In this document: in pieces, positions 12,679 through 27,916 of the stretch
How the letters are laid out: the number at the start of each line of letters is the position of its first letter
Position numbering within the stretch: position 1 is the first letter of the stretch
Assembly (NCBI GenBank): GCA_947589125.1
Contig: CANPZZ010000005.1
Coordinates: forward strand, 1-44,222
Direction: 5' to 3'
Length of the DNA: 44,222 nt
From: an uncultured Lachnospiraceae bacterium
Lineage (GTDB): Bacteria; Bacillota; Clostridia; Lachnospirales; Lachnospiraceae
Notes under the pieces: generated by a model
Seen by the model: only the letters and a program-made list of their open reading frames with translations
Database searches by the model: none
What the model was told of the DNA's origin: nothing
Translations under genes and position numbers: made by a program

Positions 12679-13446
12679 ATGGCAAAGATGAAAATATGCG
12701 GACTGCAGAAGACAACTCTCCTGGACTATCCGGGCAAAGTGGCGGCCACCGTGTTTCTGGGCGGCTGTAATTTCCGCTGCCCGTTCTGCCACAACTCCGA
12801 TCTGCTGGGCGGCGACGCGCCGGAACTGATGACAGCGGAAGAACTTCTGACGTTCTTAAGACGGCGTCAGGGGATCCTGGAAGGCGTGTGCATCACCGGC
12901 GGCGAGCCGACGCTGTGGCCGGATGATGCGGCGGAGCTGATGCTCCGGATCAAAGAAATGGGTTATCAGATAAAATTGGATACCAACGGCTACCGGCCCC
13001 AGGTGCTGAAGGAATTGTGCGGACTGGGAGTCGTGGACTATGTAGCCATGGATATCAAGGCTGGGAGGCGGCATTACGCGGAAGTGTGCGGGGCGGGCAG
13101 GCCGGACCGGGCCGCGGCTGGTGCAGCTCATTCCGCGGACGGCAGCTCCGGGCAGTTGGGTTTCCGTCTGGACTCCATCGAGGAAAGCGCCGCGTGGCTG
13201 ATGGAAGGCCATGTGCCTTACGAATTCCGGACCACGACCGTAAAAGGGATCCACACCGCGGAGGATTTCACCGATATCGCCGCCTGGATCGGCGGCTGTG
13301 AGCGATATTTCATCCAGGGCTTTGTGGACTCCGGTCATGTGCTGAAAAGCGGTTTCTCGGCCTATAAACGGGCGGAACTGGACGAATTTCTGGACATCGT
13401 GAAGAAGACGATCCCGGGCGCGGAGATCCGCGGCGTGGATTACTGA
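12679..13446 (+). CDS. nrdG: Anaerobic ribonucleotide reductase activating radical-SAM protein
   Basis: A 255-residue radical S-adenosylmethionine enzyme. The cluster motif CNFRCPFC (CxxxCxxC) is at about residues 31-38, followed by the TGGEP SAM-binding motif (about 74) and IKLDTNGYRP. The start LQKTTLLDYPGKVAAT is typical of the NrdG2-type activases that install a glycyl radical in NrdD. After VAMDIKAG there is an Ala/Gly-rich insertion of about 20 residues (GAGRPDRAAAGAAHSADGSS) that compact family members appear to lack. No nrdD lies in the window, so the partner must be elsewhere. AAAGGA precedes the ATG. A pyruvate formate-lyase-type activase is the less likely alternative. Confidence 0.85.
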   Translation: MAKMKICGLQKTTLLDYPGKVAATVFLGGCNFRCPFCHNSDLLGGDAPELMTAEELLTFLRRRQGILEGVCITGGEPTLWPDDAAELMLRIKEMGYQIKLDTNGYRPQVLKELCGLGVVDYVAMDIKAGRRHYAEVCGAGRPDRAAAGAAHSADGSSGQLGFRLDSIEESAAWLMEGHVPYEFRTTTVKGIHTAEDFTDIAAWIGGCERYFIQGFVDSGHVLKSGFSAYKRAELDEFLDIVKKTIPGAEIRGVDY

Positions 13447-13512
13447 TCTGTAATATAAGTAGACAGTCAGTAATACATTTCACCAAAAAGATGATAATCA
13501 TTGAAAAAAACA

Positions 13513-13542
13513 TTGATTCAAGGATATACTATTTGATATAAT
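13513..13542 (+). promoter_or_regulatory. Promoter of the ATPase/nuclease pair
   Basis: TTGATT (13513-13518), an 18-bp spacer and TATAAT (13537-13542), 40 bp before the chosen ATPase start. The surrounding DNA is clearly richer in A+T than the flanking genes. Confidence 0.6.
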
Positions 13543-13582
13543 GAATGTGGTTCTATCATGGTCTGTTTTGGGAGACACAGAA

Positions 13583-15016
13583 ATGCAAATAAAATTACAA
13601 AATATAGGTATTATAAAAGATTCAACTCTTAATCTGGATGGTCTAACCGTCATTACAGGAAAAAACAACTCCGGGAAAACTACGGTTGGTAAGACATTGT
13701 ATTCTCTCCTGGATGCTACATGCGATATTCAGCGCAAAGCCGACACTGACAAATGCTACTATATTCAACGCAAATTATTTGATATTGGGTATTATTTTGA
13801 CTTTGTTAAACAAAGTCCTGTTAATTTTAACTCTGGATCATCTTTGATGAAAGACCATCCAAATTTAAGAAAATTGATCTTCCAAATGTATTTTAGCATC
13901 TCTTCTCTGGATGATATCCTGCAGTATGCACATGATTTAGCTGATGAACTGCAGAATTTAGATTGTCATGTTTTTGATGGTATGGGAATCCGCCCACAGC
14001 TCTTTCGTTATGAAGTTGATGGTAGTAAAGCTAATTCTTTATCTGCAATAATGGAAAAACGCTGTCAAAAAGCCTTGGCTGATCTTAATCAGCTTTTTGA
14101 ACAGATAGAAAATGACTTTGACTTATCCGCTTATATTAAAGAAAGTATCAATCAAACACTACGCAATGAATTCGATGAACAAATACAGCCAATAGCGTTA
14201 CCAAACGCCTTATCAGCAATAAAGTTATTTCATACGGACTCTGTTTTTTTCAATATTTCTATAGAAAAAAACAACATCATTGAGAATAAGACACCTATAT
14301 TTTACGAAAATCCATATAAGGATGTCTTTTTAATCGATGATCCTTTTGTTTTAGATAATATTAACAATAATGTTATACGGCCACTTTCCAGGATCGAAGC
14401 CAGAATTACAAAGCCCGGACATATTTATTCGCATAATGAGAAATTGAAAGTCACCCTTGAATCTCCCAGCTTAAGTATCCTTGAGAAAACATTTCTTGAC
14501 GATTCCTTAAAACCAATCCGACAGCAGATCGATCAGGTGCTGCCCGGAACATTTGATTTTTCCAACGAAGGGAATTATTATGTCCAAAATGGCGCCAAGC
14601 TCAAACTCGGCAATCTGGCGGCAGGATCCAAATTGCTTTCCATTATTAAAATTCTCCTCGACAAAGGTAAATTGAATGAAACAACCCTGCTCATTCTGGA
14701 TGAACCCGAATCGCATCTCCACCCCCAGTGGCAGAATGTATTTGCTGAAATCGTTGTTTTGCTGGTTAAGGTTCTTCATGTCAACGTTCTGCTGACAACA
14801 CACAGTCCTAATTTTATGCTTGCAATTGATGCTTTTATGCGCAAGCACCAGATTTCGGAAGTAACTAATTTTTATCAGACAGAAATCATGGAAGACCATT
14901 TTGTCAGATATCGCTGCGTAAACGACGATATGGGACAAATCTACCAGGATTTCCTTCAGTATCTTTCTGAAATGAAGATACTCCGCAAAAAATATCTGGA
15001 ATCTTTGGAGAATTAA
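13583..15016 (+). CDS. AAA/ABC-type ATPase (OLD/SMC-like), first gene of a two-gene system
   Basis: 477 residues from the ATG at 13583 (GGGAG upstream); a longer frame to 13541 lacks such a site. The ABC-like head is split. Walker A GKNNSGKTT is at residues 26-34 after an N-terminal MQIKLQNIGIIKDSTLNLDG strand pattern. A helical, probably coiled insert lies at about 60-320. Then come a signature-like LAAGSKLLSIIKIL (about 348), Walker B and D-loop LLILDEPESHLHPQ (about 368-381) and the H-loop TTHSPN (about 405). This matches AAA_21/OLD-family ATPases used in many phage-defence systems, but no C-terminal Toprim nuclease is present. Its A+T-rich codons differ from all neighbours, which suggests transfer. 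The downstream gene starts 2 bp after the stop. Confidence 0.85.
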   Translation: MQIKLQNIGIIKDSTLNLDGLTVITGKNNSGKTTVGKTLYSLLDATCDIQRKADTDKCYYIQRKLFDIGYYFDFVKQSPVNFNSGSSLMKDHPNLRKLIFQMYFSISSLDDILQYAHDLADELQNLDCHVFDGMGIRPQLFRYEVDGSKANSLSAIMEKRCQKALADLNQLFEQIENDFDLSAYIKESINQTLRNEFDEQIQPIALPNALSAIKLFHTDSVFFNISIEKNNIIENKTPIFYENPYKDVFLIDDPFVLDNINNNVIRPLSRIEARITKPGHIYSHNEKLKVTLESPSLSILEKTFLDDSLKPIRQQIDQVLPGTFDFSNEGNYYVQNGAKLKLGNLAAGSKLLSIIKILLDKGKLNETTLLILDEPESHLHPQWQNVFAEIVVLLVKVLHVNVLLTTHSPNFMLAIDAFMRKHQISEVTNFYQTEIMEDHFVRYRCVNDDMGQIYQDFLQYLSEMKILRKKYLESLEN

Positions 15017-15018
15017 CT

Positions 15019-15699
15019 ATGATATATAAGAACATCCAACAATATGCTGATCTGCACTGGAAGGAATATCAAGCATGCGTTACTGATATTTCATGCAATG
15101 ATAACAATCAACCGTTGGTTGAAAGCGAGCATCTCTTACATAATTTTGACTCGATAAGCCAGGCTCTGTATGGGAATAAAAATGCTCCGACCTCAGCAGA
15201 CGGAATTAGTATCACGCCCAATATTGTACAGCTGATCGAATTTAAATCCGGATTTAAGAAAAGAATTACCCGTAGAAATTTCGACAGGTCGCTGGGAACT
15301 TGTCCAAAAGCCGGGCAAATATGTAATGAATATTGGGATTTGTTTTTCAAAAGTCAACAAAACGATATAAAGGCGCTGATTGACTCTATCCGTTTTAAAG
15401 CAATTGAAAGTTATATAACATTAGAAAAAAAGATTCTGCCGTTATGCGAAGATTTTGATCATAAGCAACTTCTGAAGCTGACTGTTGTGATTGATGAAGA
15501 TGGCGTTGACAGCATGGAAGACACTCTTGCGGAATTAGCTGGCAGTTCCCATCAAATCACCAGTAATAAAGCCCGGATTGAACAGGCTCTTAAGCGTCTG
15601 GGAAATCAGCAGGATGCAAATGGCCAGCCTTATTATTACGACGTAATCGAGGTTTTGTCTGCCTGTGATTATTCAAATATGCTTCAAACAATGTCATGA
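15019..15699 (+). CDS. Probable PD-(D/E)xK nuclease, partner of the ATPase
   Basis: A 226-residue protein of no family I recognise by name. Residues 59-79 read SADGISITPNIVQLIEFKSG, which fits a PD-(D/E)xK nuclease core: Asp61, a hydrophobic strand, then Glu74-Phe-Lys76. Glu35 or Glu37 in the preceding helix could complete the site. The C-terminal half (about 100-226) is helical and contains LLKLTVVIDEDGVDSMED, which may be an interaction domain. The ribosome site (GGAG) lies in the last ATPase codons and the gap is 2 bp, so the two genes are almost certainly co-translated. The same low-GC composition marks them as one transferred unit. The nuclease call is inference from motif spacing; a metal-free binding protein is possible. 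Confidence 0.6.
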   Translation: MIYKNIQQYADLHWKEYQACVTDISCNDNNQPLVESEHLLHNFDSISQALYGNKNAPTSADGISITPNIVQLIEFKSGFKKRITRRNFDRSLGTCPKAGQICNEYWDLFFKSQQNDIKALIDSIRFKAIESYITLEKKILPLCEDFDHKQLLKLTVVIDEDGVDSMEDTLAELAGSSHQITSNKARIEQALKRLGNQQDANGQPYYYDVIEVLSACDYSNMLQTMS

Positions 15700-15720
15700 T
15701 TATCTCTATTTCGCTATTTT

Positions 15721-15757
15721 GTGACAGGGACAGATTTTTATTGCCCCTGCCACTTTT
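15721..15757 (+). terminator. Terminator-like hairpin after the ATPase/nuclease pair
   Basis: GTGACAGGGACA and TGCCCCTGCCAC form a 12-position stem around an AT-rich loop, followed by TTTTCT. On the plus strand two positions are A-C mismatches; on the minus strand they become G-U pairs, so the stem is complete there but without a T-run. It sits between convergent genes. Confidence 0.5.
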
Positions 15758-15771
15758 CTAAGATAACATAA

Positions 15772-17349
15772 TCAGTTTTTTTCTTCCGTCAGCCGTATGT
15801 CTGTATACCAGTATCCGAACCGCCCGTCTCCTGCAGGCTGCATTTTCGAAAGGACGAAATTGGGAAAGCCGAACATGGACGCCATGTATTTTTCATTGCT
15901 GTAGTAATGCCCGGGGACGCCCAGGAGGAAGCGGACGACGCCGTCCGGGGACGACAGGCGCGCCAGGATCAAGTAGCGGTGGTTATAGTAGCCGTGGAGG
16001 AGGAAGCTGTTGTTGCCATAAGCCCAGGTCTCGCGGGGAAGCAGGCCGATGTCCTGAGGCTTGATCAGAAGGATCTCACAGCCGCCGTGATAATCGAAGG
16101 CCTGGATCTTCGGATAATGTCTCTGGAAATGACTCCACAGGCGGCCGATATCATCCCGATCCGGCTGACTGGCTGGTTCCGGGAGCGGAATCTGCGATGC
16201 CGGCTGTCCCTCCGGGGACGGTGCAGATCCGGATGGTATTGCTCCGGACGGTACGGCAGAGGAGGCAGGCGAGGCTGTGTCGCCGGAAGGCTGGTTCGAA
16301 GAGACTGGACCTCCGGAAGGTTGCCGGGGCGCTTCCGGCTGCGGTGACGAGGTTTCCAGTCGAAGCGGATGCGGTGCTTCCGGCTGCGGCCGAAGCTCGG
16401 AGGCTTCCGGCTGCGGCTTGGGCGGCACCTGCATATGCGCCGCCGGTATTTCTGTCTGCGGCCCGCAAGATACCTCAGACTCTGGCAGTATCGCCGCTGT
16501 TCCCGATTGTGGTACACGCGGAGTCTCCGGCACATACGGCCGCGACTCCGATGCTCCTGTTTGTGGTGCGCGCAGAGTCTCCGAAACCTGCGCCTGCGCC
16601 GCTGTTCCCGATTGTGGTGCGCGCGGAGTCTCCGGCTGCGGATATGTCACCGGCGCTTCCGGCTGCCGCATATGCGGGCTCTCCGACTGCGGCATCGGCG
16701 GTTCCTGTATCAGCGGTGCCTCCGGCTGTGCGGCCGGAACTTCCGCCCGCAGCGGCTGCAATGTCTCCTCCGGCTGCACCGCGCGCTCTCTCCCGACAGA
16801 CCTCGCCGCAGTCCTCTCCACAATGGGCTCTGCCGCGATCTCCCTCTCAATGCTCTCTACCACCGACTCCCGCGGCGCGCCGTCCATCCCGGCAAGGCTT
16901 TTCTCCGTGATCTCCGCGGGAGGCAGCTTCTCCATTTCTTTTGCTTCAGCGTTCGCCGAGGTGGCTTCCTCCAGTTCCACCGCCGCCGCGTGGGCCACCG
17001 CGTCTTCCCAGATCGTCGTATAGCAGCGCCACGCGTCGTCTGTGCTGTGAATCGTCAGGCCGTAGCAATGATCCATCCCGCGCCCGGAGCCGTCGATATT
17101 ATCAAATGGAACCACAGCGCGGAATTCGCCGCTGCCGCCCCGAAGAAAGATCCGCCCGACCAGGATCTCTTTGTCCGGCGTCAGCAGATAGACGCCTACA
17201 TCCTGATTTCCCACATAGATCCTGCGCACGCTCACCTGGATCTTGCACTGGCCGCCGCGGGCTTCCAGCTTGGCGAAACCGATGTTGCGCCCTTTCACAC
17301 CACCTTCATACGCATATATGTACGAGATCAATCTCCGATAATCCGACAT
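15772..17349 (-). CDS. DUF6128-like protein with Pro/Gln-rich linker
   Basis: About 525 residues from the ATG at 17349, which has AAGGAG eight bases upstream; the earlier ATG at 17376 has none. Residues 1-115 form a folded N-terminal domain (RRLISYIYAYEGGVKGRNIGFAKLEARGGQC...). A long Pro/Glu/Gln/Ser-rich segment (about 130-395) is built from loose repeats such as PQPETPRAPQSG. A conserved C-terminal domain follows (about 400-525, WSHFQRHYPKIQAFDYHGGCE to the end). The two-ended architecture resembles Lachnospiraceae proteins annotated DUF6128; the function is unknown. No signal peptide or membrane segment is seen. It converges on the ATPase/nuclease pair and diverges from nagB. Confidence 0.7.
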   Translation of the reverse strand: MSDYRRLISYIYAYEGGVKGRNIGFAKLEARGGQCKIQVSVRRIYVGNQDVGVYLLTPDKEILVGRIFLRGGSGEFRAVVPFDNIDGSGRGMDHCYGLTIHSTDDAWRCYTTIWEDAVAHAAAVELEEATSANAEAKEMEKLPPAEITEKSLAGMDGAPRESVVESIEREIAAEPIVERTAARSVGRERAVQPEETLQPLRAEVPAAQPEAPLIQEPPMPQSESPHMRQPEAPVTYPQPETPRAPQSGTAAQAQVSETLRAPQTGASESRPYVPETPRVPQSGTAAILPESEVSCGPQTEIPAAHMQVPPKPQPEASELRPQPEAPHPLRLETSSPQPEAPRQPSGGPVSSNQPSGDTASPASSAVPSGAIPSGSAPSPEGQPASQIPLPEPASQPDRDDIGRLWSHFQRHYPKIQAFDYHGGCEILLIKPQDIGLLPRETWAYGNNSFLLHGYYNHRYLILARLSSPDGVVRFLLGVPGHYYSNEKYMASMFGFPNFVLSKMQPAGDGRFGYWYTDIRLTEEKN

Positions 17350-17398
17350 TCCCCTGCTCCTTCCCTTACGCCGCATTTATTTCTTAAGATTAGCTATT

Positions 17399-20118: not shown

Positions 20119-23100
20119 TTACGCTTCCTCTTCGTCCTTCTTCTTAAAGCCCAGGATTCCAAACGCTCCCATCATTCCCAGGGCCACCAGGCCGAACAGC
20201 GCTGCCGCTCCTACCGGCTTGTTGTCTCCGGTCGTCGGGGCCAGGAACGCTAACGGTACATCCTCATCCTGAATCGTCTCGAAGCCGGACAGCGGTACCT
20301 GACCATCCGGGAATTCCGCAAGCGGTGTCGGATTATCCGGAATCTCTGTTCCAGGATTGCCTCCCGGGTTGCCTCCAGGCGTCCTGCCCGGTGACGGCGG
20401 TAACGGCTCTTCCGTGATCTCTACCTCATTAGTCGGAATTTCCTTGTTCGGGTTCTCCGGATCATATCCCGGGTCGCCGGGTTTCGGGTTCTCCGGGTTG
20501 TTGCTGTAACCGGTGGACGCGATGTTCTTCCATGTCGTCGTATTCCCAACTGTCGGAACCCATACCTGGAAGGATACGCTCATTGTCGCTCCCGCGGCAA
20601 CATTTCCAAGGTTCCAGGTGATCGTCTTTCCGTCCGCTCCCAAACTTCCGCCTGCGGAAATGGATCCTTCCACCAGCGTCAGGCCGTCCGGAACGGCATC
20701 CTTCACCGTCACATCCTTCGCCGTCTCTTCGCCATTATTATATACTGTGATGCGGTAAGTCACCACATCGCCGCCATACACTCTCAGTCTCTCTCTCGTG
20801 TAGGTCGCGCCATTGTCAACGGACTGCTCCTTATAGGTATTGATGCCGGGGATCTTCTCCTCAACCACTACCTTATTGGACTCTTCCGGTGTCGGCGGGT
20901 TCTCCGGATCCTTCGGATCATCCGGATCGTCGCCATACAGCATAGCCACGTTCTCCCATGCCGTATTCGCTTTCACCTGCGGTACAGTCACTGTGAAGCT
21001 GACCGTCTTCGACTGGCCGCTCCTCAGTCTTCCCAGCGACCACTTGATGGTCTTTCCGTCTGCCTGCAGTACGCCGCCGTCGGAAATGGAGCCTTCCTTC
21101 AGCGTCAGTCCGGGCGTTCCGCCGGGGATCTGGTCCGTGATAAATACTTCTTTCGTGTTGAGCCAGCTGCCGCCGTCATGGCTTACGGTGATGTAGTAAG
21201 TAACTTCATCGCCGGGTTCCACCTGCAGCTTCTCCGTCGTGCGCGTTCCGCCGTTGACGGACTGGTCCTTGACGATCTTCACGTCGGAAGTGTCTTCCTG
21301 CACCTTGACCTCATTGGACGGGATCTCCTCACGCGGCTCATCCGGGTCATCCGGGTTGTCAGGATTATTCCCATAATTCGTCGTTGCGACGTTAGTCCAG
21401 ACCGTCTTGGCCGAGACTGCGGGAACTGTCACCTGGAAGGTAACAACTTCTGTCTCTCCCGGCGCCATATTTCCCAGATGCCAGGTGATCTTCCTGCCGT
21501 CAGCCGTACCGCTGCCGGAAATGGAGTTCTGCACCAGGGTCAGGCCTTCCGGTACTTCATCCGTAACCACTACATCCAGTGCCGTGCTGCTTCCAGTGTT
21601 GCTCACAGCCAGGCGGTATGTCACCACACTGCCCTCGTTCACATCGAGGAGATCCGTTGTAAACGCCCCGCCGTTAACCGACTGCGTCTTAACGATATTT
21701 ATCTGCGGAGCTCCCTCCTGGATCACAACCGGGTTGGACGGGATCTCAGCATACGGGTCATCCGGATCATACCCCGGATCGTCCGGCTTCGGGTTATCAG
21801 GATTATTCTTATAATACGTCGTTCCGATATTCGTCCATGTTCTGTTGCTGGTGCTGCCTTCCGGCACCCTCACCACAAAACTGACTTCCTCCGTCTCGCC
21901 GACTTTCAGTTCGTCAAAATGCCACCGGAGCGCCTGATGTCCATCCGCATCCGTGATCTTCTGCCCGTCCTTCGAATCGACCAGGATCAGCTGGTCAGGC
22001 TCATACGGGATCGTATCTTCAATATATACATCCTTCGCCGTGGACTTTCCGCTGTTGGTCACTGCCAGATAATAGGTTACCTCATCACCGATGTCTACCG
22101 GCAGCGTATTCTTCGTCTTTTCCCCGCCATTCTTCGACTGGAACTTCTCGATGTAAAGGCTGGGCGGATACTCGTCGATCAGCACTTCATTGGACGGAAT
22201 CTCCGCAGGCGGATCATCCGGATCGTCCGGGTTATCCGGGTTGTTCTCATAGGTGGTTACAGCTACGTTCTTCCATACGGTGTCCTCACTGACCTCAGGA
22301 GTCTTTACGCGGAAGCTTACCGTTGCTGACTCTCCCACACCATCAGGATCTTCCCTGTGCACTACCGTGGTCTTCTCGTGATACGTATTATTCTCTTCAT
22401 CGAAGATGACCTCTGTCGTGCTCTCCTCGATAAAGCCCTTGCCCTTCAGGGTTCCGATATTCCATTCAATGGTATTGGACGCCTCGTCAAGTATGCCGCC
22501 GTTCTGGATGTCAACAAGCTGCAGACCCTCCGGAATCGCATCCCGAACCTTGATACCGGTCGCGTCCTCTGTACCATCACTGTGGACGGTCAGGTAATAC
22601 GTTACAATATTATCCGCGTCGGCTGTCAGCCTCTCCTTCGTCGCCTCGCCGTCACCGAGCTTCTGGCTCTTCTCGATCCAGACATTCGGCTTACCGGAAA
22701 GAACCGCGACCTCATTGGAGTGCTTCGGATCCGGCTCTTCATCATCCGTTACCGCGGCGATATTCGTCCATCTGGTGTTCTCCTTCACATCCGGAACCTT
22801 CACCGTATAGGATACTGTCGCCTCGCCGCCCTTCGATCCGGCTGCCGGAACCTTGGTCTTATAGGTTACTTCGACTTCCCTGCCCTTTGCATCATGGATC
22901 GTCTCAGTGTGGGAGTATTCCTCCACATATTCCCGGCCGGCCAGGTCCTCTCTAAGAACCCATGTGATCGTCTCGGCACCGGTCTCCGGGTCTGTTTCAA
23001 CCGTGACGTCCGCAATGTCTTCCGAATAGCCCGCCAGCTCAAGCGGGATCCGCCTGCCGTCTTCATCCGTCACATACGGCACTTCGTCCGTGACCGTCAC

Positions 23101-26100
23101 TCCGGCTGCCCTCTCTGTACCGTTATTTACCACGGTCAGATAATAGGTGACTTCATCGCCCTCTTTGACGATCAGCTCCTGGTCCGTCCGGTCACTGGTC
23201 TGTCCGTCGCTCGTGACCGTCTGGCTCTTGGCGATGTCAATATCCGGTACGCCTTCGATCAGCACCACTGTATCGGTTTGCAGATCCGGCGTGTCATCGT
23301 CCGGGGTGCCGGAATACGCGAACGCCGTATTGCGGTATACCTTGTCTTCCGTTACCTCCGGAACCTCGACCTGGAAGGAGACTTTCCAGGATTCATTCGC
23401 TCCCAGGCTCGGCCTGTACCATTTGATCATCCGGGTCTCCCAATCGAAGTCCGCTGTCGCCCCTTCAATACCCTGGATGCAGTCTTCATAAGATCCATCC
23501 ACCAGGATCAGACCCTCAGGTACGGTATCATACACCACGACATCCAGAAGCGCTCCCCTGGAGCCTTCTCCGTCCGTATCCTCAACCGTATTCGTCACGG
23601 TCATCGTGTAGGTGATGATATTGCCGTCCTCTACGATCAGCAGGTCATCGGTCGTACCCTCTTCATTGGACTGCTCTTTCTTTACGTCGAATGGCGGCGG
23701 GTTATAGGTATTCTTAAAGTCAACCTCCTGGCCCACACTTGCACCGCGGTTTCCATTGCCGTCTTCGTCAATATCACTAACCTTGAACGCCTCCCAGCTG
23801 GCCTGCAGATAATAGCCCCTGTCAGCGTCGTGCTTCCTGGTCACGGTAACTACGACATCGTATACCGTCGTATCATAATCAATATTCGCATTTTCGCCCT
23901 TCGTCTCAGTCACACGGTAATTGTAAATACCTTCCTCCGTGTAATAGATCGATGCAAATGCATAGTCGCCGCTTACATCATTCGTTACAGTGTAGATACC
24001 ATCCCACGGCATCGGCTGCGTACTCAGATCCTGCGGAGCAGGTACCGGTCTTATCGGGATCTGCTCAGCCGGCAGCGGCAGCTTCCACTCCGGTTCAGAC
24101 GGTGTAGCTACAGGAACCGTTTCCTTGGACGATGGCTGGGATTCTGTTTCTCCGGCAGTCGTTTCCTCGGTCGAACTGGTCTCCGGTTCGGAAGACGGCT
24201 GACTATCCTCGACAGCCTGCGTCGGAACATTGGCCTCATGCAGATCACGCTGACCATTTGAATCCGTCGCCAGCCGATAACCCATCGGCTCGATCGTGAA
24301 TTCAAACTCACCGGCCGGCAGCGTCGCGCCTTCCAGTTCCTTATGTCCATCGATCCGGACATTTACTTCATCCGGGCTGTAGCTGTTCTGGAATGTCGGC
24401 ACGATCTCGAATTCTACGTCACCTACAGATGTTCCATCACTATTCACAATCGAAATCTCAGGCTCGTTAAATGTGTAGTCGCCATCTTTATTCTGTGTGA
24501 TGGACACCTTCACCGTATATTCGGAATCATCATACTTCATGCCCTTATTAGGAGAGTCGACCTTCTCCTTGATACTGTAGTAGTAATCGCCGGGCTCATA
24601 ATACACTTCATCGGTGAAGAATGTGATATTACCATTCTTATCATTATGCACCGTTACGCCGTTCACCAGCGGATCGGTAAATGGATTATTCTCACCATTC
24701 GGTCCTGTCGTCGGCTTGAGTATAAACGTAAACTCGATCAGGTTGCCGTGTTCATCCTCAAGCAGCTTGCCAGTATCGTCCCCACTTTCGCCGATGATGG
24801 AATCATCCAACAGCTTACGCCCCTTCAGCGATGCTGTAACCGTAGGTGAGAAATGGTTCACAACCGTTGTGTCTTTCACCGCAATGTCTGGTGCATCCTC
24901 GTTAAGCGGTAACGTACCAGTGACAGGGGCATTTGCTACTCCGTCTCCATCAATTTTATAGGGAGCTCCCGGAGTCACCTCAGTAATCGTATATGTCGCT
25001 CCTGGAATCAGTCCCTTAATAGTAGTTGTCTGATTGTGCTTCAAATAGACAGTTGTCTCGCCGTTCTCATCAAATGTAACTTCATCAGTCGTCGAATTTC
25101 CGTTCGCATCAAATACATTCTCCGCCTTTACGGTGCCGGCCGGCTGTCCTGTAACTTTTACATTGAACGTAAATACCTTATTCGGATCAGCCTCTGTCGT
25201 ACCGACAGTAGTAATCTTCTTACTAATCGGCAACGCAACCAGTTCCTGGTTTGTATATGTCACCGTTACCTTGGTTCCGTTAGAACTTATTGTTCCAGAC
25301 GCTTTGCCATCCGTAATAACCTGAGAGTCAGCGCCAGTAATACCGGTAATACGATAAGTTTCCTGATTGTTGAAATTATCGCCTACCTCGCTGATTTCAT
25401 AAGTTACTCCGGCCGGAAGTCCATTAAATACGATGCTCTCTCCCGCTTTCAACTCAAATACGTATGTATATACATATGCACCTTCAGATCCAGATCTATT
25501 TGATGTAAGGCTACCACTTTGACTTCCTTGTTTGTAACTTATTGCACCATGAAGATACTCTGAATCCTTCTTTAAAATCATATAGAACTTAAATTTATCT
25601 TCTGTGTTAGAAGTGCTTGCATTCTCAACAACTTTTTCCACTTCCAGCTGTCCAAACGGCACAGTCAGTTTTCCGTTGTTGCCCTGAGTATCCGTGACGC
25701 CCGAAGTATCACCGCTCTGATGAGATGCTGTTCCCGTGGTATCAGTATTATGCGGCTGCTTTGAAGTCGTTGTATTCCGCTCCGTGGAGTAATACGAATT
25801 ATCATCAGCCGGTTTAAACGTCACCTTAGCTTCTCCCTCTGTCGGATGTTCGGGATCATAATAATTCGTATAGAAGAAAACGCTGCCATTCGTCTGATGG
25901 GTACGATAATAATCCTCACCCACCATGTTGAAATTAATACCGCCCTCAGCCGTAATCAGTCCATTCACCGGTTCAACCGTATATACAACGCGAAGAGGAT
26001 CAGGATCATTTGTCAATTCACCCGTCACTTTATTCTTGACCTGTATCGGTAAGGCGCCCCTAGGCACTTCAACGATCATGGTCTCATGTATATCATTACC

Positions 26101-27801
26101 GCTAACAGGAGTGCGCAGGTTTTCTCCTGTAACAGGCACCTTCAACTCAATCGTAAAGTCCTCAAGCTTTACTTTTCCTCCGTCTGCATTCTGCACATAA
26201 GCAGGATTAATTACATCCGTTCCCGGATTGTCTACAGTGAACTCACGCACCATATACCACTGCTCATTTATTTTTTCCCATTTCGCACTACTCTTATTCT
26301 CTGTGACCGTACAAAGCTGATTATGCATAATAACATAATCGATAGTTTTAACTGTCATAAACTCACCGATCGGATCCGTATATGTGAGTTTACTCGGCGT
26401 ATCCACCACAGGAGGTGTCGCGGGAATACGTGTTTTAATATCCTCAAAGATATTGTTAAAAATAGCAGCTAAATCTTTTCCATCTTTGTCATAACTATAA
26501 TACTTTGTCGGATAATCACAATCTTCCAAATCGCTTCTCGTAACACCATTAATGGCAGATTCCGGAAATGCCGCTAACGTTAAAGTGCCGGTTGAAGTAT
26601 CACTGTATGGTCCTTTTGTATATCCACCTGCATTACAAGTATAAGCATGTGAGTTGTTTGCATAGCCATCATATTGTCCATTGGGATTCAAAGACCGACC
26701 CTCACCAGAACCTGCAAGGATTGTATATACATACACACCGCTCTTGTCTCGATTGTAGGCTTTTGCTATCAGTGCTTTATAATATGTGGCACTCAAAACT
26801 GCTATAGCATCTTGAATACCGTCTGCACCTTCCCCTACTGCCATAGAGGTATTACAAACATTGCCGTACCACCAGTCGTCCTCGCTGCCAGAAAGAATAT
26901 GGTTAGCCTGCCCGTCTCCCAAAAGTACAACAACAGGCACACGACCATCCGTTTGATCCGAAGTTCTGTTCGCCAGCGCTCCCATACCTGTGACAATTCC
27001 ACCCTGATAATTTGTACCGCCGCCAAGGTTATCGTTTCTATCTCTGTCTGAAGCGTACCCACGATATGACTCCTCTGCAGCATTTTCGTTTAGTTTCCAC
27101 CATAACTCCGCTTCACCCATGCCGCCCCCATCATTATAATTTACATATTTTGTAAACTGCGGCGTACCGGACGCTGTGTCATCAAATGAAATTATCTCTT
27201 TTCCAGTTCCCCAAAATACCGTTACGCTGATACGGCTATCGGCATCATATGATTTCACCTGGCTCATCAGCTGATTGGCCGCATTAAGAACCTTAGCCAA
27301 ATTACTGGTGTCTGTTTCCAAATTCCCCTCATAAGTACCATTCAATTCCGACGACGTAATATCCAGAATAAGAGATATATCTATCGGCGTAGTTTTCTCA
27401 TTCGTGGTGCCAGAGCCTAAAGCAGAGAATACCTCAACAAAACCATTGTCTCCGGGTTTAACCGTTTCCAACGTTTTCCCATCCAACTCTGTCAACCTCT
27501 CATAGACCGACTTATCCGTCCATACCTTTCCGCCATTCGCGTTTGCATCAGTAATCATATCACCCGGCGTCGGCGTCTGTCCATCGACTACCTTCTCAAG
27601 CCCTGCCGAAGTTGGCGTTGCCCATGCCGTAATCCCGACATTCGTCAGCGCAGTCGTCGCGATCATGCTCATGGCAAGCATGCCGGCGGTGATGCGCTTC
27701 GCCAGCTTGTTCCGGCTTATAGTCTGCGCCGCTGCCTGCAGCGAGCCGCTCAGCCGTCCGAGTCCTGTGTTCGCAAGTCCCATTTCTTTCTTCTCCTTCA
27801 T
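20119..27801 (-). CDS. Giant wall-anchored surface protein: vWA, pilin-type and DUF11-like repeat domains
   Basis: 2560 residues from the ATG at 27801 (GGGGAG upstream); a longer frame to 27858 is less likely. A signal peptide ends near residue 62 (TNVGITAWA). A von Willebrand A domain follows (about 130-430) with a MIDAS-like DITSS near 146, GGTNYQGG and LLGDGQA near 299. Four pilin/isopeptide-type domains start near 709, 854, 980 and 1139, the last interrupted by a Ser/Thr/Glu/Pro-rich insert (about 1187-1267). Seven DUF11-like repeats, each beginning xIxKxQS and with VTYxLTVxNxG ... VxDxVPEGL, start near 1369, 1517, 1703, 1878, 2030, 2174 and 2317. The end has APTTG, a hydrophobic helix and a charged tail, a sortase signal of xPxTG type. 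Likely an adhesin or large pilin; no sortase is nearby. Confidence 0.93.
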   Translation of the reverse strand: MKEKKEMGLANTGLGRLSGSLQAAAQTISRNKLAKRITAGMLAMSMIATTALTNVGITAWATPTSAGLEKVVDGQTPTPGDMITDANANGGKVWTDKSVYERLTELDGKTLETVKPGDNGFVEVFSALGSGTTNEKTTPIDISLILDITSSELNGTYEGNLETDTSNLAKVLNAANQLMSQVKSYDADSRISVTVFWGTGKEIISFDDTASGTPQFTKYVNYNDGGGMGEAELWWKLNENAAEESYRGYASDRDRNDNLGGGTNYQGGIVTGMGALANRTSDQTDGRVPVVVLLGDGQANHILSGSEDDWWYGNVCNTSMAVGEGADGIQDAIAVLSATYYKALIAKAYNRDKSGVYVYTILAGSGEGRSLNPNGQYDGYANNSHAYTCNAGGYTKGPYSDTSTGTLTLAAFPESAINGVTRSDLEDCDYPTKYYSYDKDGKDLAAIFNNIFEDIKTRIPATPPVVDTPSKLTYTDPIGEFMTVKTIDYVIMHNQLCTVTENKSSAKWEKINEQWYMVREFTVDNPGTDVINPAYVQNADGGKVKLEDFTIELKVPVTGENLRTPVSGNDIHETMIVEVPRGALPIQVKNKVTGELTNDPDPLRVVYTVEPVNGLITAEGGINFNMVGEDYYRTHQTNGSVFFYTNYYDPEHPTEGEAKVTFKPADDNSYYSTERNTTTSKQPHNTDTTGTASHQSGDTSGVTDTQGNNGKLTVPFGQLEVEKVVENASTSNTEDKFKFYMILKKDSEYLHGAISYKQGSQSGSLTSNRSGSEGAYVYTYVFELKAGESIVFNGLPAGVTYEISEVGDNFNNQETYRITGITGADSQVITDGKASGTISSNGTKVTVTYTNQELVALPISKKITTVGTTEADPNKVFTFNVKVTGQPAGTVKAENVFDANGNSTTDEVTFDENGETTVYLKHNQTTTIKGLIPGATYTITEVTPGAPYKIDGDGVANAPVTGTLPLNEDAPDIAVKDTTVVNHFSPTVTASLKGRKLLDDSIIGESGDDTGKLLEDEHGNLIEFTFILKPTTGPNGENNPFTDPLVNGVTVHNDKNGNITFFTDEVYYEPGDYYYSIKEKVDSPNKGMKYDDSEYTVKVSITQNKDGDYTFNEPEISIVNSDGTSVGDVEFEIVPTFQNSYSPDEVNVRIDGHKELEGATLPAGEFEFTIEPMGYRLATDSNGQRDLHEANVPTQAVEDSQPSSEPETSSTEETTAGETESQPSSKETVPVATPSEPEWKLPLPAEQIPIRPVPAPQDLSTQPMPWDGIYTVTNDVSGDYAFASIYYTEEGIYNYRVTETKGENANIDYDTTVYDVVVTVTRKHDADRGYYLQASWEAFKVSDIDEDGNGNRGASVGQEVDFKNTYNPPPFDVKKEQSNEEGTTDDLLIVEDGNIITYTMTVTNTVEDTDGEGSRGALLDVVVYDTVPEGLILVDGSYEDCIQGIEGATADFDWETRMIKWYRPSLGANESWKVSFQVEVPEVTEDKVYRNTAFAYSGTPDDDTPDLQTDTVVLIEGVPDIDIAKSQTVTSDGQTSDRTDQELIVKEGDEVTYYLTVVNNGTERAAGVTVTDEVPYVTDEDGRRIPLELAGYSEDIADVTVETDPETGAETITWVLREDLAGREYVEEYSHTETIHDAKGREVEVTYKTKVPAAGSKGGEATVSYTVKVPDVKENTRWTNIAAVTDDEEPDPKHSNEVAVLSGKPNVWIEKSQKLGDGEATKERLTADADNIVTYYLTVHSDGTEDATGIKVRDAIPEGLQLVDIQNGGILDEASNTIEWNIGTLKGKGFIEESTTEVIFDEENNTYHEKTTVVHREDPDGVGESATVSFRVKTPEVSEDTVWKNVAVTTYENNPDNPDDPDDPPAEIPSNEVLIDEYPPSLYIEKFQSKNGGEKTKNTLPVDIGDEVTYYLAVTNSGKSTAKDVYIEDTIPYEPDQLILVDSKDGQKITDADGHQALRWHFDELKVGETEEVSFVVRVPEGSTSNRTWTNIGTTYYKNNPDNPKPDDPGYDPDDPYAEIPSNPVVIQEGAPQINIVKTQSVNGGAFTTDLLDVNEGSVVTYRLAVSNTGSSTALDVVVTDEVPEGLTLVQNSISGSGTADGRKITWHLGNMAPGETEVVTFQVTVPAVSAKTVWTNVATTNYGNNPDNPDDPDEPREEIPSNEVKVQEDTSDVKIVKDQSVNGGTRTTEKLQVEPGDEVTYYITVSHDGGSWLNTKEVFITDQIPGGTPGLTLKEGSISDGGVLQADGKTIKWSLGRLRSGQSKTVSFTVTVPQVKANTAWENVAMLYGDDPDDPKDPENPPTPEESNKVVVEEKIPGINTYKEQSVDNGATYTRERLRVYGGDVVTYRITVYNNGEETAKDVTVKDAVPDGLTLVEGSISAGGSLGADGKTITWNLGNVAAGATMSVSFQVWVPTVGNTTTWKNIASTGYSNNPENPKPGDPGYDPENPNKEIPTNEVEITEEPLPPSPGRTPGGNPGGNPGTEIPDNPTPLAEFPDGQVPLSGFETIQDEDVPLAFLAPTTGDNKPVGAAALFGLVALGMMGAFGILGFKKKDEEEA
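20440..23700 (-). repeat. Seven DUF11-like repeats in the giant surface protein
   Basis: Seven diverged copies of a module of roughly 145-185 residues, with starts near genomic positions 23695, 23250, 22690, 22165, 21710, 21280 and 20850. Each ends with a Pro/Asp/Asn-rich linker such as NPDNPDDPD followed by EIPSNEV. Copies differ at many codons, so this is an old expansion. Confidence 0.85.
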
Positions 27802-27916
27802 GATTATTCTCCCCTTCCTTCGGTTTCCTTTCATTCTATATCTGAAAGCTTCTTTCAAGCTGTGTGCGTGCCGCCTGTATGTCCGGCGGCGGTAACCTGT
27901 GACGGTTGATCGTCAT

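Follow-up and report, generated by a model that had tools for sequence, protein, structure and literature searches.

A low-GC ATPase-nuclease gene pair in a Lachnospiraceae genome, most likely a divergent member of the WonAB kind

Two adjacent genes of an uncultured Lachnospiraceae bacterium differ in base composition from everything around them, which raises the question of what they do, how they arrived and whether the system they form is a new one. A sequence-only reading had called them a candidate undescribed defence system made of an ATPase and a nuclease. Here we follow up that proposal in the window, the whole 44,222-nucleotide stretch analysed, which is an entire contig of a 2.5-Mb draft genome. 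The underlying observation was confirmed and the outline of the reading was right, but "undescribed" was wrong: the pair looks like a distant cousin of WonAB, not a wholly new kind of system.

A two-gene insertion

The first gene (13583..15016, forward strand) encodes an OLD-type ABC ATPase of 477 aa and the second (15019..15699, forward strand) a putative PD-(D/E)xK-like nuclease of 226 aa. Two bases separate the ATPase stop codon (15014-15016) from the nuclease ATG at 15019, and a GGAG lies upstream of that ATG at 15007-15010, within the 3' end of the ATPase gene, in line with the close translation signals described earlier. For the ATPase start, 13583 is the best choice because the alignment of its relatives begins at a Met there; an alternative start at 13541, giving a longer open reading frame, falls on a promoter-like site. 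That site (13513..13542, forward strand), TTGATT-18-TATAAT with TG before the second hexamer, matches the consensus at 10/12 positions and could be the shared promoter that had been proposed, but the region holds 12 such sites compared with 8.4 in shuffles (sd 2.6), so that the class is not clearly above chance. The proposed terminal hairpin is present 3' of the nuclease gene (15721..15753, forward strand; -11.8 kcal/mol, z -2.6) but absent from the listing of the terminator scan. Rfam gave no match over 13000-16200 at gathering scores.

The claim that base use is unlike that of the neighbours holds up. The GC content of the pair is 0.372 versus 0.555 for the rest of the contig, and outside the locus no 2117-base window, taken in steps of 50 over the whole contig, falls below 0.42. 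GC3 is 0.36 and 0.38 in the two genes versus 0.69-0.76 in the four neighbour genes computed. Elsewhere on the contig, GC dips to 0.42-0.45 over about 24500-27500, inside a gene at 20119-27858 for a 2579-aa protein with DUF11 and FctA domains. No defence domain was found in a Pfam scan of 10 other genes in the window.

Upstream of the pair is a radical-SAM gene (12679-13446, forward strand, Pfam match), which we take to be NrdG-like, and downstream a DUF6128 gene (15772-17376, reverse strand, Pfam match). The radical-SAM gene is present in 13 of 21 genomes of the genus, own included, and 12 loci other than our own were compared. In ten of these the aligned flanks are 0-181 bp apart versus 2338 bp in the window; L116 and L117, where the downstream flank is unmatched, are therefore outside the empty-site count. 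The position of the pair is not conserved within the genus. The segment that the ten loci lack is about 2.3 kb long (13447..15784, unstranded), and the last bases of the DUF6128 gene extend into it. In the three same-genus relatives whose junctions were read, there is no sequence resembling the pair, and repeats at the insertion include no convincing target duplication or terminal repeat. The inserted content is two genes only, without an integrase or phage gene, and these comparisons support a clean, recently acquired insertion of a two-gene unit.

The ATPase and its small partner

Pfam assigns the first protein to AAA_15 (1.9e-19) and AAA_21 (1.6e-17); matches to SMC_N and RecF are weak. None of the 10 Pfam families listed is a Toprim one, and the H-loop is followed by only 70 residues, in agreement with the earlier description of an OLD-type ATPase that lacks this domain. 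The protein has the Walker A, Walker B and H-loop motifs of an OLD-type ABC ATPase: GKNNSGKTT, which includes Lys32 (13658..13684, forward strand), a Walker B with Asp373-Glu374 (14687..14710, forward strand), and His407 (14801..14803, forward strand), 33 residues past Glu374. Gly26, Asn28, Lys32, Asp373, Glu374, Pro375, Glu376 and His407 are found in all 38 of the pairs that we aligned, a measure of conservation that is partly circular, as is that of adjacency, because most rows also built our ATPase alignment (A1) and nuclease profile (A3).

In PADLOC, the top models among the best 25 of 130 matches are PD-T4-4_A, HEC-02A and AriA, then PDC-M47A and NsnB, and the best scores are 2.4e-24 for PD-T4-4 and 9.2e-24 for HEC-02. 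Each of the 17 ATPases in A1 reaches 1e-10 or better with both PD-T4-4_A and HEC-02A, and PDLC04146, a PADLOC model named HEC-02B, is itself matched by ATPases. Chains of PtuA-type retron ATPases, OLD and AriA lead a PDB profile search, and phrog_14430, a family of phage proteins without an assigned function, covers nearly the whole window ATPase (residues 1-440, 4.7e-41).

By itself, the nuclease has no match in Pfam, a single irrelevant one in NCBIfam (E 0.017) and a single marginal one in PADLOC (NsnC, E 0.009 over 63 residues), which we take as chance. The search against defence models suggested in the sequence-only reading thus gave strong matches for the ATPase but only that marginal one for its partner. 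When 30 nucleases of the family were scanned, Pfam returned one spurious match, NCBIfam none at E 0.01, and PADLOC marginal matches to HEC-02B, PDC-M29B and single others, with at most 4 of 30 for any one model (E<=0.01 for HEC-02B). At least five relatives have a marginal match to some HEC-02B model, these being about 170-200 positions long; the window nuclease is matched by none of the HEC-02B partner models. With the nuclease alignment as query, a profile search of the PDB returned irrelevant matches only, from E 0.098 up.

The residues of the putative active site are Asp61 (15199..15201, forward strand), present in 38/38 pairs, and Glu74-Phe75-Lys76 (15238..15246, forward strand), with Glu74 in 38/38 and Lys76 in 36/38; Lys127 is also in all 38. 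Since they are conserved in relatives, Asp61, Glu74 and Lys76 are no chance motif. An AlphaFold2 model built from 15 sequences (pLDDT 76.9, pTM 0.76) has 10-residue blocks above 90 pLDDT over residues 11-70 and low confidence at 82-96 and 170-178. After N-terminal elements, the modelled order is strand 39-42, helix 43-51, strand 62-65, strand 69-76, helix 103-142 and strand 151-158, which places Asp61 just before the second strand and Glu74 and Lys76 at the end of the third, with helix 43-51 as an extra element between the first and second strands of the supposed nuclease core. The model fits a variant of the PD-(D/E)xK core and not the textbook order. Together, the conserved residues and the modelled order point to a PD-(D/E)xK active site in the small adjacent protein, as had been proposed, and the predicted structure is compatible with a nuclease core. 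The Lys76-Lys127 spacing in the window nuclease, 51 residues, is the longest of the 38. Two divergent nucleases (L051:4796-5410 and L085:7409-7993) have Ser at the Lys76 position; their active site may be inactive or rearranged, or the alignment may be wrong there.

A family of linked pairs and its carriers

Searched with the nuclease, only 2 of 397 genomes of the family had a match, our own copy and a remnant in G053 that keeps pieces of the ATPase and the nuclease in order, with parts of both missing. Using the ATPase as query revealed a family of such pairs. It matched 19 of 394 family genomes at 1e-10, own included, and in 13 of the other 18 the gene after the ATPase encodes a protein of 182-222 aa that bears the motif S-x-D ... 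(I/V)E(F/L)K; the partner is also present in G315 and G387, and the last three are the remnant and two partial ATPases. The decayed copy, L023:8392-9227, is of a close relative of the window pair, 68% identical to it over ATPase residues 1-75.

A further 47 loci came from scanning genome contigs and viral contigs. Profile A3 is present in 19/19 of those with an ATPase at E < 1e-36 versus A1 and in 0/28 of the remaining ones (E < 0.1), a contrast that is partly circular because 15 of the 19 gave rows to A3. In L051 a contig end cuts the first ATPase, and the partner is next to another one; L053 is also cut. A fairer test of pairing comes from the order level, where A3 matches 14 of 392 genomes, own included: at the 13 loci outside A3, the ATPase is directly upstream of the nuclease in 12 (the ATPases of L124 and L129 are in A1). 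L132 has no recognisable ATPase. As read by eye, the neighbours of the family loci vary and look ordinary and not like defence islands, and the expectation that homologues would occur as a pair in differing places was borne out.

The 38 aligned pairs do not include split, partial or broken loci (L023, L038, L032, L082, L125, L131, L132, L134/L136 and L137), duplicates (L025, which is the L047 record, L086, L087, L121 and L122), L031 and L034, which are the same loci as L129 and L124, or the later-found L139, L140, L169 and L170. Of these pairs, 28 are from the window's order or other Bacillota, and the other 10 are from Bacteroidota (1), Campylobacterota (2), Nitrospirota (1), viral contigs (5) and a phage record (1). 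Taking the first start codon, the genes overlap or are at most 21 bp apart in 38/38. Pairwise distances of ATPases and nucleases are correlated (Mantel r 0.80, reached in 0 of 10000 permutations), to which shared descent of the hosts may add. In both trees the window pair has L042, from an uncultured Oscillospiraceae, as its sister (100/100 and 98/97); we do not use the deeper order because there are many long branches in both. L042 is the nearest intact relative, at 34% and 25% identity, and in 381 genomes of the class the window's own subtype was found in the window alone at E 1e-5. In the Campylobacterota loci L050:3653-6034 and L052:6001-8439, the nuclease gene overlaps the next gene by 7 bases. 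The overlapped gene reads like that for the glycyl-tRNA synthetase alpha chain; a link to translation and shared descent are both possible explanations of the overlap.

The GC content of the pair is below that of its flanks in 16/16 loci (15 family genomes and one phage record), with a drop of less than 1 percentage point in two of them. Copies are found in phage record MT835532.1, in IMG/VR contigs, which are labelled viral, and on two plasmids, one of 5.9 kb from Klebsiella and one of 35 kb from Acinetobacter. The Klebsiella plasmid is mobilisable and carries the pair at L170:2001-3966; among its seven annotated genes are ones for mobilisation, replication, a RelE-type toxin and NadS, besides the two of the pair. 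One end of a 4.9-kb viral contig, whose genes look phage-like by eye, holds the C-terminal portion of an ATPase (L139:4490-4837) that is 56% identical to the window ATPase over residues 345-472. Scans of viral contigs for close relatives of either protein alone found none, and the nuclease had no match among plasmids and phages at E 0.1.

Known systems and the proposed function

Septu, PARIS, Gabija and Menshen have ATPase cores (PtuA, AriA, GajA and NsnB) like that of the window ATPase, and the partner is an HNH protein in Septu, Toprim-like in PARIS and a helicase in Gabija. As the sequence-only reading had it, the effector is unlike these: the nuclease has no Pfam match that would make it the HNH protein PtuB or a Toprim-like AriB, it has no AriB match in PADLOC (NsnC being the sole family listed), and no helicase was found at the locus. 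Assignment to PD-T4-4 or HEC-02 needs both models, and here the ATPase is strongly matched but no partner model matches the nuclease. Neither gene is named by a housekeeping family. Menshen includes a DUF262 gene beside NsnB and NsnC (PMC10952713); we rejected it for a two-gene insertion flanked by radical-SAM and DUF6128 genes with a marginal NsnC match.

The layout is that of a published kind, the "OLD-ABC ATPase + novel REase" operon of the survey by Krishnan et al., to which WonAB, its tested example, is assigned and which is present in 0.96% of bacterial genomes, according to PMC12137116. WonAB, from the Vibrio WASA-1 prophage, is described there as a system of two proteins, an ABC ATPase of OLD type and a variant PD-(D/E)xK nuclease. 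Both are required for its abortive infection, in which translation is arrested and genomic DNA stays intact; its authors suggest rRNA or tRNA as the target and note a resemblance to PD-T4-4. WonB K71A and WonA ATPase variants are inactive, and WonB is toxic only alongside WonA with ATPase activity (PMC12137116); the account is repeated in PMC12409358. The window shares with this kind the two-gene layout, ATPase gene then nuclease gene, the OLD-type ATPase and the small restriction-enzyme-fold partner; the window clade is divergent, and the likeness is one of description. In WonA, the Walker A Lys is 266 residues from the Walker B Glu (K34-E300), which is 33 from the H-loop His (E300-H333); the family here has compatible distances of 193-348 and 32-33, although the first is longer in the window, at 342. 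The catalytic Lys is residue 71 in WonB and, putatively, 76 in the window nuclease. WonA has a described C-terminal extension, compared with 70 residues after His407 in the window ATPase, and WonB is 16.1 kDa (PMC12137116), compared with 226 aa and the longest Lys76-Lys127 spacing in the window nuclease. On layout, the features of both proteins and residue spacings, all compared at the level of description, we regard the pair as probably belonging to the WonAB kind, most likely as a divergent Gram-positive member.

We therefore think that the two genes probably make up a compact phage-defence operon of this kind, gained by horizontal transfer. By analogy with WonAB, the ATPase, as a dimer, would hold the small nuclease, sense an infection-related signal, bind and hydrolyse ATP at Lys32, Glu374 and His407, and then license the PD-(D/E)xK nuclease (Asp61, Glu74, Lys76), which would halt growth before the phage completes. 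For the window pair, the defensive role, the sensing, the complex, the nuclease activity and the target are ones that we infer from this analogy, which makes a translation RNA a more likely target than the chromosome.

It is quite possible, if short of probable, that the same architecture cuts DNA, of phage or plasmid genomes, in a restriction-like or Gabija/Septu-like manner. PD-(D/E)xK nucleases act mostly on DNA, and the ATPase has distant sequence kinship with GajA, PtuA and OLD. With WonB, however, genomic DNA was reported intact and translation stopped (PMC12137116). The close spacing of the two genes, together with the decayed remnant at L023, would also suit a toxin-antitoxin module in which the ATPase merely neutralises the nuclease. 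We find this improbable: WonB toxicity is described as requiring ATPase-active WonA (PMC12137116), which argues against simple sequestration, and the ATPase motif residues are kept in 38/38 pairs.

OLD/RecF/SMC-like ATPases also have repair roles, and the weak SMC_N and RecF matches could be read as signs of an AT-rich DNA-repair or other housekeeping pair; a nuclease found in 2/397 family genomes, one of them a broken remnant, and the empty sites within the genus make this very improbable. Carriage in MT835532.1, IMG/VR contigs and two plasmids would suit cargo that a phage or plasmid uses against competing phages (superinfection exclusion). For the window, where the insertion is two genes without an integrase or phage gene, we regard this as unlikely, and it is not truly exclusive of a defence operon. 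Within the preferred reading, that of a WonAB-like defence operon, we tentatively suggest, with more doubt than confidence, that the window and L042 form a subtype of their own, in which the restriction-fold nuclease is enlarged, has a long insert ahead of the central helix and would cut one particular translation RNA, for instance a tRNA.

The only member of the WonAB kind that we found studied in detail is from a Gram-negative host, and within the open-licence literature no study of such a pair in Clostridia was found by title. The 38 aligned pairs give a sequence definition for a nuclease family that Pfam and NCBIfam do not recognise (30 members scanned), with active-site residues that can be tested and natural plasmid and phage-like carriers, and they make the question of RNA versus DNA as target testable in several lineages. 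If the tentative subtype reading is true, a fold best known from enzymes that cut DNA would serve in Clostridia as an RNA-cutting effector of abortive infection.
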